IMG/VR virus record: IMGVR_UViG_3300009085_000093
Span: 1-21,752 of that record
DNA: 21,752 bases
Reading direction: 5' to 3' (one strand)
Source: a virus
The translations under genes were made by a program, and so were the position numbers. Shown in pieces: positions 1,493 to 9,435 of the stretch. The notes beneath the pieces were generated by a model, which saw only the letters and a program-made list of their open reading frames with translations, made no database searches and had not been told where the DNA came from. How positions within the stretch are numbered: the first letter of the stretch is position 1; each line of letters opens with the position of its first letter.

Positions 1493-1996
1493 ATGCGTCC
1501 GGTCTGCTGCGACCTCGGCGCCATCGCCGGCGTGCTGCTCGACGAGGTCGCGCGTCGGTGCCCGGCCTACCGCGACAACGCCTTCGCCCGGTGGCTGGGG
1601 GTGGACCGGTCGCTCGTCGGGCACTGGCGGTCGGGGGCCCGTCCGATGCCGGTCGAGGTCCTCCCGCACCTGGCACGCTACTGCGGAGACCCGGAGGCGG
1701 TCTACGGGGATCTCCTCGCCCGGGCAGGGTGCGCGGTCGCCCGGGAGGATCCGGACCCGGACGACCCGGAGGCCGCGATCTCCCGGGTGCGCCTCGAGGT
1801 CGGCCGCCTGCTCGTCTCCTGGGAGGAGGGCGTGCTCGACGGCCGGCTCGACCCGGACGAGGCGACGGCGCTCGTGGACCAGCTCGACACGCTCCGGGTC
1901 GAGGTCTCCCGGTTGCGCGCCGGGCTGCTCACCCGAAGGGCCCGGAAGGCACGGAAGGCACGAAAGGCCGGACCGGGAAGGAGGAACGCGCGATGA
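1493..1996 (+). CDS. Helix-turn-helix regulator-like protein with basic repeat tail
   Basis: This protein of about 167 residues contains a probable helix-turn-helix near residues 27-62 (FARWLGVDRSLVGHWRSGAR followed by a leucine-rich helix), resembling Cro/CI-like DNA-binding domains. Residues 90-145 are acidic and helical, possibly for oligomerisation. The C-terminus is strongly basic, with Arg-Lys-Ala triplets from a 9-bp DNA repeat (1943-1969). Start choice is uncertain. In-frame GTG 1433, ATG 1439 and GTG 1487 lie upstream, but the N-terminus they would add does not look structured, and GGGGG lies about 10 bases before 1493. The stop overlaps the next start (ATGA at 1993-1996), so it probably begins the rightward early operon. 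Confidence 0.6.
   Translation: MRPVCCDLGAIAGVLLDEVARRCPAYRDNAFARWLGVDRSLVGHWRSGARPMPVEVLPHLARYCGDPEAVYGDLLARAGCAVAREDPDPDDPEAAISRVRLEVGRLLVSWEEGVLDGRLDPDEATALVDQLDTLRVEVSRLRAGLLTRRARKARKARKAGPGRRNAR
1943..1969 (+). repeat. Three tandem 9-bp repeats coding for Arg-Lys-Ala
   Basis: CGGAAGGCA occurs at 1943-1951 and 1952-1960, followed by the variant CGAAAGGCC at 1961-1969. The unit is a multiple of three, so it adds a basic tripeptide to the end of the regulator-like protein without changing frame. Confidence 0.8.
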
Positions 1997-2541
1997 TCAT
2001 CCTCGGAATCGACCCGGGGCCCCGGACGTGCGGGGTGGTCTACTACGACTCGGACCGCCGGGAGATCCCACCTCGGCTCGCGGACGGGTGCGCCTCGGAA
2101 TCCAAGCTGGACGACATCCTGTTCAAGATCGGTTTCCTGGGCATCGGCGTGGACCTGGTCGCCGTCGAGCGCCTCCAGTCCTGCGGGCAGTCGGGCGCGG
2201 ACCTGTTCCAGACGTGCGAGGTGGTGGGGCGCATCCAACAGCGGACGCTCGACGCGGGCCTACCGGTCATCCTCCTCTACAGGCGCGAGGTGCTCCGTGC
2301 CCTCGACGTGACCGGGATCGGGAACCGAGACGCGATGGTCCACCAGCGTCTCCTCGAGATGCATGGGGGGAGCCGGCCTGCCGCGGTCGGGACGAAGAAG
2401 GCCCCCGGACCCCTCTACGGCATCACCGGGCACGCCTGGCAGGCCCTCGCGGTCGCGGTGGCGGCCTCCTACCGGCCGGAGCCGTCCTGGGTGCCGGTCG
2501 CCCTCGCCTCCGGGCTCGGGTGCGGGGGGGAGGGGACGTGA
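1993..2541 (+). CDS. RuvC-like Holliday junction resolvase family nuclease
   Basis: This 182-residue protein has an RNase H-like fold of the RuvC type. The first strand is MIILGIDPGPRTCGVVYY, with catalytic Asp7. The second acidic site is Glu59 in LVAVERLQS. The C-terminal helix is GHAWQALAVAVA (from about residue 146). In RuvC the C-terminal helix supplies two metal ligands. Here His147 and Gln150 stand at the expected positions, so the last acid seems to be replaced by Gln. In phages such enzymes resolve branched DNA before packaging or act in recombination. The ATG at 1993 overlaps the preceding TGA and has AGGAGG 8 bases upstream. Long Pro/Arg-rich extensions possible further upstream in frame are rejected. 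Confidence 0.75.
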   Translation: MIILGIDPGPRTCGVVYYDSDRREIPPRLADGCASESKLDDILFKIGFLGIGVDLVAVERLQSCGQSGADLFQTCEVVGRIQQRTLDAGLPVILLYRREVLRALDVTGIGNRDAMVHQRLLEMHGGSRPAAVGTKKAPGPLYGITGHAWQALAVAVAASYRPEPSWVPVALASGLGCGGEGT

Positions 2542-2999
2542 AGCCGCAAGAACGGACGAGAGCGATCCTGGAATCGGGACTCGACCCGGAATCAAAGCTG
2601 ATCGCCATCGTGATCGCGGACCACATGAGCGGGGACGAGTGCTCCGCGTGGCCGAGTATCCCCACCATCGCGCGCATGTCCGGCCTCTGTGAGCGCACCA
2701 TCTACACCCGGACAACGGCGGGCGAAGCCGCAGGCTGGCTCTCCCGGGAGCGGCATGTAGGCTGGAAGTGCCAGCCGTGGCAGATCGCCTTCGACCAACT
2801 GCCCGACCCCTGCACCGGATGCACCCCTGCACGGCATGCATGTGTCGGAAAGCAACACCCCTGCACGGCATGCAGCCCACCCCTGCACCGGATGCAGGGG
2901 TACCCCTGCACGGCATGCAGCCGATCCGACCATGGATCCGACCATGGATCCGACCAGAGAACAACAGCCCGACGCTGCCGCGTCGTGCGTGCGCCCTGA
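2538..2999 (+). CDS. Helix-turn-helix replication protein carrying an internal iteron array
   Basis: This 153-residue protein has a winged helix-turn-helix in residues 1-75. The pattern KLIAIVIADHMS, then WPSIPTIARMSGLCERTIYT and a wing ending GWLSRERHVG, is like the DNA-binding domain of phage replication initiators. After about residue 90 the protein turns into a Cys/His/Pro-rich stretch. This stretch is encoded by five 17-bp DNA repeats followed by 12-bp repeats, so its CxxC pairs are probably a by-product of DNA repeats and not a zinc finger. GTG 2538 overlaps the previous TGA (GTGA) and follows a GGAGGGG ribosome binding site. Having iterons inside the initiator gene recalls the lambda O gene. 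The initiator role is inferred. Confidence 0.7.
   Translation: MKPQERTRAILESGLDPESKLIAIVIADHMSGDECSAWPSIPTIARMSGLCERTIYTRTTAGEAAGWLSRERHVGWKCQPWQIAFDQLPDPCTGCTPARHACVGKQHPCTACSPPLHRMQGYPCTACSRSDHGSDHGSDQRTTARRCRVVRAP
2807..2919 (+). repeat. Five 17-bp direct repeats (iteron-like), candidate replication origin
   Basis: Two variants alternate: CCCCTGCACCGGATGCA at 2807-2823 and 2880-2896, and CCCCTGCACGGCATGCA at 2824-2840, 2858-2874 and 2903-2919. Start-to-start spacings are 17, 34, 22 and 23 bases, so the first three copies keep a 17-base phase. Each copy contains TGCA-N5-TGCA. The copies are read in three different reading frames of the host gene, so they are conserved as DNA, not as peptide. 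This is typical of initiator-binding iterons. Confidence 0.85.
2880..2906. repeat. Hairpin and palindrome inside the iteron array
   Basis: CCCCTGCA (2880-2887) and TGCAGGGG (2893-2900) are perfect 8-bp inverted repeats around a 5-base loop. The 10-bp palindrome GGGGTACCCC (2897-2906) joins this hairpin to the next repeat copy. Only the fourth iteron copy is extended in this way. Confidence 0.8.
2923..2956 (+). repeat. Tandem 12-bp repeats next to the iterons
   Basis: GATCCGACCATG occurs at 2923-2934 and 2935-2946, followed by a partial copy (GATCCGACCA) at 2947-2956. The unit is in frame and encodes Ser-Asp-His-Gly repeats. It lies 3 bases after the last iteron. Confidence 0.85.
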
Positions 3000-3022
3000 A
3001 CAGCCCGAACACGAGGACCACC

Positions 3023-3238
3023 ATGCCAACCCTGCCCCTCCCGACTCCCGACCGCACCGTGACCCTGCCCCTCCCTCTGGCCCTGCGGCTCCTGGGGGCC
3101 CTGGAGAACCACGCCCCGCTCGACGCCCGCGTGCGGCTCGACGGCTCCCTGCGAGACCTCGAGCGCCGGATCCGGGGCGAGCTCGCACGGGGCAGCCCGC
3201 ACCCGCTGGACCCGGAATCGCACCCGCCGGATGCGTGA
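3023..3238 (+). CDS. Small hypothetical protein
   Basis: This 71-residue protein starts MPTLPLPTPDRTVTLPLPLA, with GAGGA 5 bases before the ATG. The N-terminal third is Pro/Leu-rich. The middle (ALRLLGALENHAPLDARVRL, then RDLERRIRGELARG) looks helical and amphipathic. The final residues are Pro/His-rich. No family is recognised. Its stop overlaps the next start in a GTGA, which supports real translation and coupling. It sits between the candidate initiator and the helicase, where phages often place small loading or accessory proteins, but nothing in the sequence shows such a role. Confidence 0.55.
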   Translation: MPTLPLPTPDRTVTLPLPLALRLLGALENHAPLDARVRLDGSLRDLERRIRGELARGSPHPLDPESHPPDA

Positions 3239-3615
3239 AGCCGCCCCTCGACCCTCGCATCCGGATCGTGACCGACCTGTGGAGCGCCGCATTCAAGGCG
3301 AGGTACGGCCGGAAATACGCCTGGGACCTCGGCCTGCACGGGAAGCAGAGCGAGGATCGGAAGGCCGCGCTCCGGGTGATCGCCGTCGCCCGGATCCCGC
3401 TCCCGGAGCACGACGGGGTCGAGGCCCTGTCCCGTACCCGGGACGCGATGGAGGCGTACCTGGACGCCCACGAGCGCTACGTCCTGGACGGGCTCGTCCC
3501 ACCCGAGGCTCAGCCGACCCTCGCCCGGTTCGGCCGTGACGTACAGCGGTGGCTCGGGAGCGGCTCGCCATCGCCGTCCACCTACTCGAACCCGCTGATC
3601 CCGGTGATACGATGA
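3235..3615 (+). CDS. Hypothetical protein of the replication module
   Basis: This 126-residue protein starts at GTG 3235, overlapping the upstream TGA, and ends in an ATGA overlap with the helicase start. The core (LWSAAFKARYGRKYAWDLGL, then EDRKAALRVIAVARIPLP and a helix ending AYLDAHERYVLDGL) has the pattern Trp, Phe-Tyr-Gly, then Lys/Arg-rich helices. This pattern is common in C-terminal domains of phage replisome organisers or helicase loaders that are placed before a DnaB gene. The similarity is weak, so a helicase loader role is only inferred from the pattern and the position. There is no strong ribosome binding site, so expression probably depends on translational coupling. Confidence 0.6.
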   Translation: MKPPLDPRIRIVTDLWSAAFKARYGRKYAWDLGLHGKQSEDRKAALRVIAVARIPLPEHDGVEALSRTRDAMEAYLDAHERYVLDGLVPPEAQPTLARFGRDVQRWLGSGSPSPSTYSNPLIPVIR

Positions 3616-5060
3616 CGACCCCCTTCCCCGACCGCGAGCGCACGTTCCTCGGCATCTGCCTGCTCGACCTGTCGGCCCTGGACCGGACGAAGATCCGGCC
3701 GGAGCACCTGGTCCGGGACCGGCACGCAGTCCTGCTCCGGCACATGCTCGACCTCCGGCGGGCGGGCCGGCTCGAGTCGCCGGACGAGCTCGCGTACAGC
3801 ATCGTCTCCTCCCGGCAGCTCGAGGAGGACGTGGGCGGGCTCGGGTACGCGACGGGCCACGCGGACTCGGCACCGACGGTCGAGGTCCTCCCCTACGTCG
3901 AGCGGCTCATCCTGGAGGACTACCACCGGCGCCAGATCCGGGGTGCCGCCGCCCGGGCACAGGGCCGCATCCAGGAGGGGGACTCGGCGCGCTCGGTGGA
4001 CGCCCAGCTCCGGGCGGACCTGGACGGCGTCCGGGACGTCGGCGAGGACCTGTGCGAGCCGGCCTCCTCGATCGGCGAGGCGGTCTGGAAGCGGCAGGAC
4101 GAACGGCTCCGGAGCGGTCGGACGGCCTACATCCGGTCCGGATGGCGGTCGTGGGACGATGCGGAGGACGGCCAGGGCTGGTCGAGCGAGGGCGTCACGA
4201 TGATCGTCGCCCGTTCGGGGATGGGGAAGACCTCGTTCGTCAACTCGACGGCCGTGCTCATGGCGGCCTCGGGCACCCGGGTCGTCGTCCACGGCACGGA
4301 GACCTCCCGGCAGGCTCGGGTGGACGCGATGGCCTACGGGGTCTCGGGAATCGACCCGCGTCGCTACCACTGGCTCACCCGGCTTCGGGGCGAGGGCAGG
4401 GCCAGGCCGCAGGACGAGGAGGAGCTCGAGGAGCTCGCCCGGCTCCATCACCAGGCCCTCGCCTGGCTGGGCACCCTGCCTCTCCGGGTCTCGGGGGCGG
4501 GCTTGACCGTCGAGGCGATGGCCGCAGAGGTCTCCCGGCTCCACCACGCGGACCTCTGCGACGTGCTCCTCGTGGACTACCTCCAGGACTTCGTCGTGTC
4601 GGTGGGCGTCAAGGTCGGCGAACGGGTCGTCCAGGTGGGCCATGCCTCGGCCACGCTCAAGGCCCTGTCCTCCAGGCTGGGTATCCCCATCCTCGTCGCG
4701 GCGCAGATGTCGGACGAGAAGGAGACCGCCAGGAGTGGACCTCCGCCCGACCCGTTCCCGGAGATGCACCAGATCCAGTGGAGTTCGGGTGCGCACCAGG
4801 ACGCCGAGGAGATCTACGCGCTCAATCGGGGTGAGTACTGGCGGGACCGACTCGGCCAGGCGTACCGACCGGATCGGCATGGGCATCCGGGCGTGCTCGA
4901 GGTCCAGTCCCGTAAGCGCAGGTCGGGCCGCCTCGTCCGCTGGGAGCTGACCTGGGACGGGCCGACCCGATGGGTGGGACCCCGACCGCAGATCGGCAGG
5001 CCCACCGCACCGCCGCCCAGGCCGGAGACGCACGAGGGGGAGGAGGCGGGGGCGTGGTGA
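3612..5060 (+). CDS. DnaB-like replicative DNA helicase
   Basis: This 482-residue protein has the two domains of DnaB helicases. Residues 1-100 match the N-terminal helical domain (RERTFLGICLLDLSALDRTK, RHAVLLRHMLDLRRAG). The RecA-like ATPase domain follows from about residue 175. Walker A is RSGMGKTS at 201-208, an Arg-rich helix follows ETSRQARVDAMAY, and Walker B is LLVDYLQDF with Asp322. It would unwind the phage replication fork as a hexamer. The ATG at 3612 overlaps the previous stop (ATGA), and no strong ribosome binding site is visible. The terminase genes follow within 41 bases, so replication and packaging genes may share a transcript. The length is close to that of typical DnaB proteins. 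Confidence 0.9.
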   Translation: MTTPFPDRERTFLGICLLDLSALDRTKIRPEHLVRDRHAVLLRHMLDLRRAGRLESPDELAYSIVSSRQLEEDVGGLGYATGHADSAPTVEVLPYVERLILEDYHRRQIRGAAARAQGRIQEGDSARSVDAQLRADLDGVRDVGEDLCEPASSIGEAVWKRQDERLRSGRTAYIRSGWRSWDDAEDGQGWSSEGVTMIVARSGMGKTSFVNSTAVLMAASGTRVVVHGTETSRQARVDAMAYGVSGIDPRRYHWLTRLRGEGRARPQDEEELEELARLHHQALAWLGTLPLRVSGAGLTVEAMAAEVSRLHHADLCDVLLVDYLQDFVVSVGVKVGERVVQVGHASATLKALSSRLGIPILVAAQMSDEKETARSGPPPDPFPEMHQIQWSSGAHQDAEEIYALNRGEYWRDRLGQAYRPDRHGHPGVLEVQSRKRRSGRLVRWELTWDGPTRWVGPRPQIGRPTAPPPRPETHEGEEAGAW

Positions 5061-7134: not shown

Positions 7135-9435
7135 ACGGCCCCGAAACCGACACCGACGCCGACCTGGTTCCAGAGACTCCTCGGAGGCCTGGGGCTTTGG
7201 AGGCCGGACCCGTCGCCCGATGCGGAGGACTACGGTGCTGACTACGGCGCGGCGGGGGACCTGCCCCCGCGCTACTCGCCGGACGATGCGGCGTCGGCGG
7301 CCGAGGTCTTCAGCTGGGTCTACGCGGCCATCCTGCGCCGGAGTGCGGCGATGGCCCGGCTGCCGATCCGGGTGTTCAGGTACACCAACGGCAAGCGCGA
7401 GGAGCTGCCCGACCACTGGCTGCTCACGCTCATGGAGCAGCCCTCGACGGTCGTGGACGGCCAGGTCTGGCGCCGGGACCTCTACTGCGACCTGCTGCTC
7501 ACGGGCGACTGCTACGCGAAGGCGGTCAACCCGCCCGGGCTGTCGAAGGGCATCGGCAGCCTGCAGCGGCTGCACCCGAAGCGGGTGACGATCCAGACGG
7601 CCCGCGGGGGCATCGATGCGTACCTGTACGACCTCGGGGGCGAGCGGGCGCGGCTCGACCCGGCCGTCGTCTGCCACGTCCGGCTGCCGAGCTTCCGGAG
7701 CGACCCCGACCAGTTCTTCTACGGGGTCGGTGCGATCCAGCCTCTGAACGACGAGCTGAACGCCGAGGCCGCTGCGGTCATGCGGACGAGGGAGGCCGCC
7801 AAGCGCGGCAGGCCCGACGTCCTCATCAGCCCGAAGGAGGGCGGCCTGACGGACGAACAACGCCGTGGCATCGCCCAGGCCTACGCGCAACTCACCCAGC
7901 GGAGCGGGGGCGCGCTCGTCCTCTCCGGCCAGGTCCAGGTCGACCCGGTGGCCTGGTCGATGCGGGACCTCGAGTTCGCCTCGCTCCGGTCGTACACCCG
8001 GGAGGGCATCCTCGCGGCGCTTGCGGTCCCGCCGGTCGTGATGGGCCTGGAGACGGCCAACTTCGCAACCGCTCGGGAGCAGACGGCGACGTTCTGGTCT
8101 GCGGTCGCCGACGAGGTGACGCTGTTCGATTCGGCGCTGCTCACCCGGGTCCTACGCATCGCCGGGGAGCGAGACACCTACGCCGAGCACGACCTGTCGG
8201 GCATCAAGGCGCTGTCCGCCTGGCGCACCGAGGCCGTCCAGCGGGCGACCTCGCTCTACTTCCTCGGGGTGGACCGGGACGTCGCGCTCGCCTCCGAGGG
8301 CCTCGACGACGTGGTGGAGCTCCAGGCCGAGGCCGACGCCGCCCGCCCGAAGCGCCCCGCGCCAACGGCCCCGAAGCCGCCCGCCGAGGAGGAGCCCGCT
8401 GCCGAACCGGAACCCGACGCCGAGCCGGACGACACCGAGGAGCCAGCCGAGCCCGAGACCGAGGGCGCAACCGCCGACGGCACCGCTGCATGGTGGCTCC
8501 GACTCGCCCCGCCGGCGCAGCGGGACGCACCGGAGCCCACGAGCCCGCCGCCCTGGCCTCCCGAGGGCGAGGAGGCGCGTGGAGCCGAGTGGCGCGGGTT
8601 CGTCGAGCAGCTGCACGACCATGCCGAACGGTCGCTCGCGGCCCGGCTCCGGTCCGCGCTCTCCGACCAGGCCGACCGCGTGGCCGAGGCGCTCGTCGAC
8701 GTGCTGCCTCCGGAGCGCCAGGGGCCGCAGGGCCGGACCCGAGGGTTCTCCGTGGACGCGGTGCTGTCCGCCATCTTCGACCCGGTGCTCGAGGCGACCG
8801 CGTTCGTGGACGCGACCGCGGCCGTCCGCCAGCAGATGATGGAGTCGGCGATCCGGCGTGCGCTCGTCCAGGTGGCCCTGCTCGGCGACTGGGATCCGTC
8901 GCGTGTGGACGGGCTGACCGACGAGGTCCTCGCCGAGAGGATCGTCCAGCAGGCGATGGCGGGGGACGGGTTCGCCGAGGTGACCGACACGACCCGCGCG
9001 GCCGTCCGCGAGCTGCTGCTCCAGGGGCTCGACGAGGGCCAGACCATCGGCGAGATGCAGTGGGCCATCCAGCACGCGGAGGCGTTCAGCCCGACCCGCG
9101 CCCTCCGGATCGCCCGCACCGAGACCACCCGCAGCGTGAACGCGGGAGCGCTCGCCTCCTACGACGCAGCCGCGGCCGAGCTCGGCCAGGCGGTCGACCG
9201 ACAGTGGCTGTCTGCGCGGGATGCCGCGACCCGGCCCGAGCACCTGGCGCTCGACGGCCAGACGGTGGCGAAGGGTGAGGCCTTCCGGGTGCCCGCCGAG
9301 CCCGGTCTGGACCCGGCCTACGTCGGTGCGACCGCCGAGGGCCCGGGGGGGTTCGCACAGCCGGGCCTCGTCTGCAACTGCAGGTGCACCGTGATCCCGG
9401 TGCTACGCGCCGAATCCGCGAAGGAGACAGCATGA
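7135..9435 (+). CDS. Portal protein fused to a MuF-type (SPP1 gp7-like) head morphogenesis domain
   Basis: This is about 766 residues if it starts near 7135. Residues 55-400 are an HK97-type portal: EVFSWVYAAILRRSAAMARL, PDHWLLTLMEQPS, then the DLLLTGDCYAKAV and FYGVGAIQPLNDEL regions. An acidic Pro-rich linker spans about 402-450. The C-terminal part (about 600-762) is MuF-like: RALRIARTETTRSVNAGALA, QWLSARDAATRPEHLALDG, and the final CNCRC at 747-751. The portal ring is the DNA entry channel, and MuF proteins are minor head proteins. The first ATG in frame is 7351, but it would delete conserved portal sequence. No ATG, GTG or TTG exists between the stop at 7126-7128 and 7351. ACG 7135 would give an N-terminus APKPTPTPTWFQRLL after the first residue. 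The end overlaps the protease start. Confidence 0.88.
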   Translation, partial: TAPKPTPTPTWFQRLLGGLGLWRPDPSPDAEDYGADYGAAGDLPPRYSPDDAASAAEVFSWVYAAILRRSAAMARLPIRVFRYTNGKREELPDHWLLTLMEQPSTVVDGQVWRRDLYCDLLLTGDCYAKAVNPPGLSKGIGSLQRLHPKRVTIQTARGGIDAYLYDLGGERARLDPAVVCHVRLPSFRSDPDQFFYGVGAIQPLNDELNAEAAAVMRTREAAKRGRPDVLISPKEGGLTDEQRRGIAQAYAQLTQRSGGALVLSGQVQVDPVAWSMRDLEFASLRSYTREGILAALAVPPVVMGLETANFATAREQTATFWSAVADEVTLFDSALLTRVLRIAGERDTYAEHDLSGIKALSAWRTEAVQRATSLYFLGVDRDVALASEGLDDVVELQAEADAARPKRPAPTAPKPPAEEEPAAEPEPDAEPDDTEEPAEPETEGATADGTAAWWLRLAPPAQRDAPEPTSPPPWPPEGEEARGAEWRGFVEQLHDHAERSLAARLRSALSDQADRVAEALVDVLPPERQGPQGRTRGFSVDAVLSAIFDPVLEATAFVDATAAVRQQMMESAIRRALVQVALLGDWDPSRVDGLTDEVLAERIVQQAMAGDGFAEVTDTTRAAVRELLLQGLDEGQTIGEMQWAIQHAEAFSPTRALRIARTETTRSVNAGALASYDAAAAELGQAVDRQWLSARDAATRPEHLALDGQTVAKGEAFRVPAEPGLDPAYVGATAEGPGGFAQPGLVCNCRCTVIPVLRAESAKETA

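Follow-up and report, generated by a model that had tools for sequence, protein, structure and literature searches.

The window, that is, the whole 21.7-kb stretch of viral DNA analysed here (21,752 nucleotides, 71% GC; IMG/VR record IMGVR_UViG_3300009085_000093), most probably has a lambda-type phage origin of replication that lies within the gene of its own initiator, with putative dimer binding at iterons, opening of adjacent 12-mers, and loading of DnaB; we set the probability of this reading at about 0.86. The original prediction, made from the letters alone, had named the same gene as a candidate lambda O/ori-type origin with its own initiator. Such an intragenic origin with a putative initiator is now strongly supported at the sequence level by the HTH_36 and PHROG 391 assignments of the encoded protein, the dnaB-like gene downstream, and the occurrence of the array in relatives. 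The features of the region are collected in Table 1.

Table 1. Features of the putative replication region of the window (positions are those of the window).
Feature	Position	Strand	Basis or remark
RuvC-like Holliday junction resolvase, upstream neighbour	1990–2541	+	PHROG 1770, 4.9e-6
Putative replication initiator, 153 residues	2538–2999	+	GTG start overlaps the stop of the upstream RuvC-like gene
Iteron 1, CCCCTGCACCGGATGCA	2807–2823	+	motif scan
Iteron 2, CCCCTGCACGGCATGCA	2824–2840	+	motif scan
17-bp slot, no recognisable iteron, possibly a decayed copy	2841–2857	+	spacing 34 = 2 × 17
Iteron 3, CCCCTGCACGGCATGCAG	2858–2875	+	motif scan
Iteron 4, ACCCCTGCA-CCGGA-TGCAGGGGT, perfect 9-bp arms	2879–2901	+	motif scan
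Iteron 5, CCCCTGCACGGCATGCAG	2903–2920	+	motif scan
12-mer 1, GATCCGACCATG, putative opening element	2923–2934	+	tandem repeat, relatives' matrix, L493
12-mer 2, GATCCGACCATG	2935–2946	+	tandem repeat, relatives' matrix
12-mer 3, GATCCGACCAGA, partial	2947–2958	+	tandem repeat
Small ORF, 71 aa, no assigned function	3023–3238	+	coding backed by third-position GC
Small ORF, 126 aa, without family match	3235–3615	+	third-position GC, family searches
DnaB-like replicative helicase	3612–5060	+	DnaB_C 4.7e-22, DnaB 7.8e-5, PHROG 19 3.3e-35

The array at 2807–2920 consists of five copies of CCCCTGCA-N5-TGCA, all located inside the initiator gene, where they occupy codons 92–124. The TGCA-N5-TGCA cores start at 2811, 2828, 2862, 2884, and 2907, giving spacings of 17, 34, 22, and 23 bp, and CCCC precedes every copy. 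As originally described, the units are near-identical variants differing by a GC swap, the spacer being CCGGA in copies 1 and 4 and CGGCA in copies 2, 3, and 5, and the first three keep a 17-bp phase, the second spacing being twice 17. In the relative L035 (17-17-22-23-22), the counterpart of the slot between copies 2 and 3 holds an iteron copy. Every unit forms an inverted repeat of the type CTGCA-N5-TGCAG, without mismatch in copies 3, 4, and 5, whereas copies 1 and 2 deviate at the end of one arm; the iterons are thus dyad sites and not direct repeats only. The longer form, CCTGCA-N5-TGCAGG, is complete in copy 4 and imperfect in the other copies; the left arm and its CCCC are the constant part of the units. 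Neither this dyad symmetry nor the adjacent 12-bp repeats had been part of the original prediction. A motif search of the whole window with CTGCACNGNATGCAG, allowing up to two mismatches, gave seven matches against 0.34 expected, a number reached in none of 100 shuffles, and the array proved to be confined to one place, a single exact TGCA-N5-TGCA being present elsewhere in the 21.7 kb, at 7562. A lone near-copy with one mismatch, CTGCACGGGAAGCAG, lies at 3334–3348 within the 126-aa ORF. The GC skew around 2.8 kb, proposed earlier as a check, does reach its minimum for the first 8 kb (−0.18) at 2751–3250, yet this is weak as evidence for an origin.

The putative initiator is composed of a winged helix-turn-helix (HTH) part (codons ~1–88) followed by an iteron-encoded, probably disordered tail. 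Its N-terminal part matches HTH_36 (E = 6.3e-7, 29.5 bits against a curated cut-off of 25), and its top PHROG match is PHROG 391, 'replication initiation O-like' (7e-8); its classification among the HTH_36/PHROG 391 O-like phage initiators is thus supported by sequence profiles. Profile searches of the same protein gave no match to Phage_rep_O and none to the Rep_3 initiator domain at E up to 1. The AlphaFold2 model, built from 13 sequences, contains a confident winged helix at residues ~3–88 and a tail of pLDDT ~50–60, unstructured where the iterons are encoded. With this model, Foldseek against predicted viral proteins returned phage HTH proteins and one phage O protein; the fold search of the PDB gave no match at E ≤ 0.001, the structures returned being generic winged helices, and sequence comparison with solved structures likewise gave generic HTH matches only. 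The protein stops ~29 residues past the start of the last iteron and contains no C-terminal domain of the kind usual in its relatives, though not strictly defining for them. The arginine that opens the recognition helix, R53, does not vary among 13 aligned members of the TGCA class. Arginine occupies position 53 in 21 of the 22 members with at least three GCA-N5-TGC sites versus 28 of the 48 without them, the two sets sharing descent and being partly selected. In the viral_contigs collection no tblastn-confirmed relative of either the initiator or DnaB was found.

To the left of the replication genes lies a temperate-phage regulatory region with a repressor-like gene (240–590, − strand), a second regulator (622–987, + strand), and a CII-like gene (1433–1996, + strand); no tRNA or Rfam match was found anywhere in the window. 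No helicase loader was recognised in the window by profile searches including PHROG: the 126-aa ORF has no family match that would make it a P-type loader, and a phage DnaB is present instead. Judging from its position, the product of this ORF is a possible candidate for a helicase-loading partner. It was also considered as the missing C-terminal part of the initiator and rejected, as it shows no similarity to the protein of L493, the closest initiator relative found, or to ORFs of the loci examined. It is also worth mentioning that the frame 2836–3615 is open from within the iterons to the end of the 126-aa ORF, and a frameshift would join the HTH part to it; third-position GC favours separate genes over such a fusion of 2538–2999 with the open frame.

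Virus and genome collections were scanned for TGCA-N5-TGCA arrays, and HTH-like ORFs were sought up to 2.5 kb from them with an iterated profile that started from four seeds, one of them the window; the counts refer to the matches listed. Among these, at least 26 HTH-like ORFs lie near arrays, and all 26 contain the array, directly 3' of the HTH codons. Several of these ORFs being near-identical, they amount to nearer fifteen independent cases. Most arrays among the matches listed are other repeats, outside HTH-like genes. The members of the TGCA class range from 40% GC (L118) to 75% GC (L156, Micromonospora), their arrays fall in several frames, and their spacing is built of 17- and 22–23-bp steps, as in L035 or in L062 (17-36-17-22-22). 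Relatives chosen without regard to the motif have other dyads at the same place and with like spacing, e.g., GGTG-N9-CACC or CGCA-N5-TGCG, and Pseudomonas phage PP9W2 has GGCA-N5-TGCC dyads spaced 16-17-23-22. In this motif-unselected panel a dyad is significant (p ≤ 0.02 against shuffles) in about one third of the genes, the exact-match test finding none in the rest. The search in related phages suggested with the original prediction located TGCA-N5-TGCA arrays in the same place of very divergent initiators, and other dyads there in other relatives. The GGTG-N9-CACC class occurs in the same position of the HTH_36 initiators of L292, L293, L295, L297, and L337. In Neolewinella persica (L168, L180, L196, L259), TGCA-N5-TGCA arrays are present on several contigs, next to which the profile found no HTH_36-like ORF. 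When searched in whole genomes, PF13730 also draws unrelated HTH regulators.

The iterons are followed by a second module, a 12-bp tandem at 2923–2958 that begins 10 bp, or one helical turn, past the midpoint of the last iteron. At that position the relatives carry strand-specific GAACCRTCA tandems repeated every 10–13 bp, in all three frames and independent of the iteron sequence. The tandem, again strand-specific, is found in most relatives, and in L035, L322, L326, L331, L345, and L347 a 12-bp tandem stands beside the iterons, as in the window. GAACC-type 8-mers were counted in 77 HTH-distinct genes: past the HTH at least one is present in 27 of 74, compared with 0 of 77 upstream of the HTH and 1 of 73 further downstream, and they are confined to one strand. 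In many genes the GAACCRTCA copies are spread over different frames, and in GC-rich phages they use rare codons: where they are read as E-P-S, Ser is TCA in 12 of 17 cases versus 44 of 600 elsewhere in the same ORFs, and Glu is GAA in 28 of 30 versus 120 of 493. In a split-half test on a non-redundant panel (<45% HTH identity), 65% of the members exceeded the 95% control level, compared with 4% for the opposite strand; as the consensus of these very loci served to seed the matrix, the figures test generality and not blind discovery. In a collection-wide tandem scan, 91 of the at least 118 places listed lie 3' of the HTH in the same HTH-like ORF, at a median of 153 nt from it and in frames 70/16/5 among the matches listed; several of the remaining places listed represent the tails of initiators truncated at a contig border, and some are simple repeats. 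In the GCA class, 12 of 16 genes leave a gap of 4–5 bp behind the last GCA-N5-TGC core, among them the initiator gene of the window with 4 bp.

The 12-mers of the window are, we infer, a diverged version of the GAACCRTCA element. With a matrix from whose training the window was excluded, the best tandem match in the window, over both strands, is at 2923, and its other tandem repeats have negative scores; the score at 2923 is reached somewhere in 22 of 100 shuffled whole windows, so that by itself it is no proof and only suggestive, and the identification is carried by the position and by L493. The latter was found by a direct scan for GAWCCGACC tandems, in which 1 of 29 matches, L493 itself, fell in an initiator gene, the rest being mostly coding repeats of the Glu-Pro-Thr type. 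Its initiator begins with MNPQDRTR, compared with MKPQERTR in the window (pairwise E = 2e-17), and its gene (L493:5550–6785) encodes 412 aa, with the C-terminal part within the same ORF. L493 keeps the GATCCGACCAT repeats, with the tandem GATCCGACCATGATCCGACCATTGATCCGACC at the place of the window 12-mer, and in both phages the tandem starts 10 bp from the last dyad centre. The L493 iterons are CGTCA-N3-TGACG, spaced 57, 22, 23, and 22 bp, and its recognition helix differs from that of the window. Between these two phages, then, the iterons and the helix changed while the 12-mers stayed, a contrast that rests on one relative, itself found via the 12-mer. Given that the repeats are retained with different iterons and in different hosts, they may be read by a conserved replication protein or else by the initiator itself, through a second surface. 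By analogy with plasmid origins the 12-bp tandem would be a DNA-opening, DUE-like element, and the GAACCRTCA element is generally somewhat AT-richer than its surroundings. Against an origin at this place counts that there is no strong AT-rich tract, the 60 bp past the last iteron being 38% AT versus 29% for the window, with a duplex stability that is modestly low only; the missing C-terminal domain and the absence of a recognised helicase loader point the same way.

Other explanations of the iterons were weighed against these data. The claim that the DNA and not the peptide is selected held up well: the iteron coordinates modulo 3 are 0, 2, 0, 1, and 0, i.e., all three reading frames are used as had been stated, copies 1, 3, and 5 giving PCTGC or PCTAC, copy 2 PARHA, and copy 4 LHRM; third-position GC, 0.83 in the gene frame over 2538–2800, is flat (0.61/0.72/0.73) across the repeats, and relatives translate the same DNA as TPAxxA, PLHxMQ, or PCxxC. 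The TPAxxA and PLHxMQ readings, together with the disordered model at this place, indicate that the CxxC pairs are a by-product, as suspected from the start, and because the iterons and 12-mers lie in codons of a disordered linker, their DNA can be selected without harm to the protein. It is hardly credible that the iterons are kept as protein, in the form of a Cys-rich (CxxC) or Pro-Ala linker: the common PCTxC frame of three copies and a sub-threshold C1-domain match (0.073) are consistent with it, but two copies fall in other frames, the TPAxxA and PLHxMQ peptides of relatives have no Cys, and the coding signal is lost where the model is disordered. An operator by which the HTH protein would repress or road-block transcription of its own operon, with replication starting elsewhere, is very improbable. 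An HTH protein beside dyad sites does suit autoregulation, and the scan that found no promoter-like match is weak at high GC; however, the sites are mid-gene, 270–380 bp past the start, their spacing is helically constrained, a second repeat adjoins them, DnaB is encoded nearby, and the nearest families are replication initiators.

With the iterons taken as the origin, the 12-bp repeats could still be an unrelated slippage repeat of this phage, which we regard as unlikely. There are 2.8 copies only, their sequence departs from the common GAACCRTCA, and the shuffled windows attain the score as stated above, yet they are the top tandem match of the window, their distance to the last iteron is as in the relatives, and L493 combines the same repeats with different iterons. 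Rather improbable is an action of the GAACCRTCA/GATCCGACC repeats in RNA, for instance as the site at which a factor for termination or antitermination binds the early transcript; their strand specificity and 10–13-nt spacing would fit this, but strand specificity is equally expected from the recognition of single-stranded DNA, and the element starts at a fixed distance, about one helical turn, from the last DNA iteron and is generally somewhat AT-richer than its surroundings.

According to the preferred reading, an origin of the lambda type, winged-helix dimers of the 2538–2999 product would occupy the five dyad iterons and build up an O-some-like complex. This complex would strain the adjacent 12-mers, where duplex opening and/or a grip on one of the strands would take place and where the phage DnaB would be loaded. 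Plasmid Rep proteins and their 13-mers (PMC4081077) provide the analogy on which the suggested opening of the 12-mers, or their binding as a single strand, is based. We consider the chances even that the origins of phages with HTH_36 initiators are in general two-part, composed of fast-evolving iterons, read by the recognition helix, and a slow strand-specific 10–13-bp tandem (GAACCRTCA; in the window GATCCGACCATG) about one helical turn off, the latter being an undescribed opening or helicase-loading signal across several bacterial phyla. What may be new is the 12-mer in its general form; the plan of an intragenic origin is already known. A limited open-access search found no published account of the GAACCRTCA repeat, the text matches to the 9-mer being primers and unrelated papers, and to our knowledge no GAACCRTCA-type tandem beside phage iterons has been described. 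For phages without studied relatives this offers a rule for finding origins: an HTH_36 gene, dyads at 17 and 22–24 bp, and a GAACCRTCA-type tandem 10–11 bp from the last dyad centre. Comparison of the window with L493 separates the target of the recognition helix from what something else reads, and makes DNA opening and DnaB loading in such phages a testable question.

Among known systems, iteron plasmids such as RK2 are not known to have the origin within the initiator gene. In RK2 (TrfA, DUE 13-mers) the iterons adjoin a short tandem repeat as in the window, a comparison of how the two would work only, since plasmid Rep proteins are two-winged-helix initiators and the 13-mers are AT-rich. 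Rep proteins of iteron plasmids bind one strand of the DUE repeats sequence-specifically (PMC4081077). The HTH_36/PHROG 391 O-like initiators of Pseudomonas phages PP9W2 and phi2 and Vibrio phage vB_VpM-pA2SJ1 have an N-terminal HTH followed by dyads, as in the window, and phages of this group carry the 10–13-bp GAACCRTCA-type tandem past the iterons, in the position of the window tandem; the window differs by the TGCA half-site, the diverged GATCCGACC 12-mer, and the lack of a C-terminal domain in the ORF. Repeats within the O-like gene of Pseudomonas phage MD8 were published as a lambda-type origin, and the accessible part of that paper describes neither an iteron class nor a second element (PMC8508860). 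The lambda ori in O and the O gene of Stx phages likewise place the origin inside the initiator gene, with four to six inverted-repeat iterons ~20–24 bp apart. The annotated lambda iterons (TCCCTC-N5-GAGGGA, 17 bp, 6-5-6, spaced 20/24/23, codons 117–139 of O) have the 6-bp arms and 5-bp spacer of CCTGCA-N5-TGCAGG and the same bias towards a constant left and a variable right arm, and in both systems an N-terminal DNA-binding domain precedes the iteron-coded linker and a flanking element lies downstream. The inverted repeat is what lambda O needs, O proteins are dimers, and the minimal unwinding unit of lambda ori is composed of the iterons and the adjacent AT-rich tract (PMC7466680). In the window the iteron sequence is different, a 12-bp tandem replaces the strong AT-rich tract, and the phage encodes a DnaB of its own and no recognised P protein. 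As the protein family also differs by profile (HTH_36 and no Phage_rep_O in the window, lambda O unmatched by the HTH profile), the region is proposed to work like lambda ori, not to encode lambda O.
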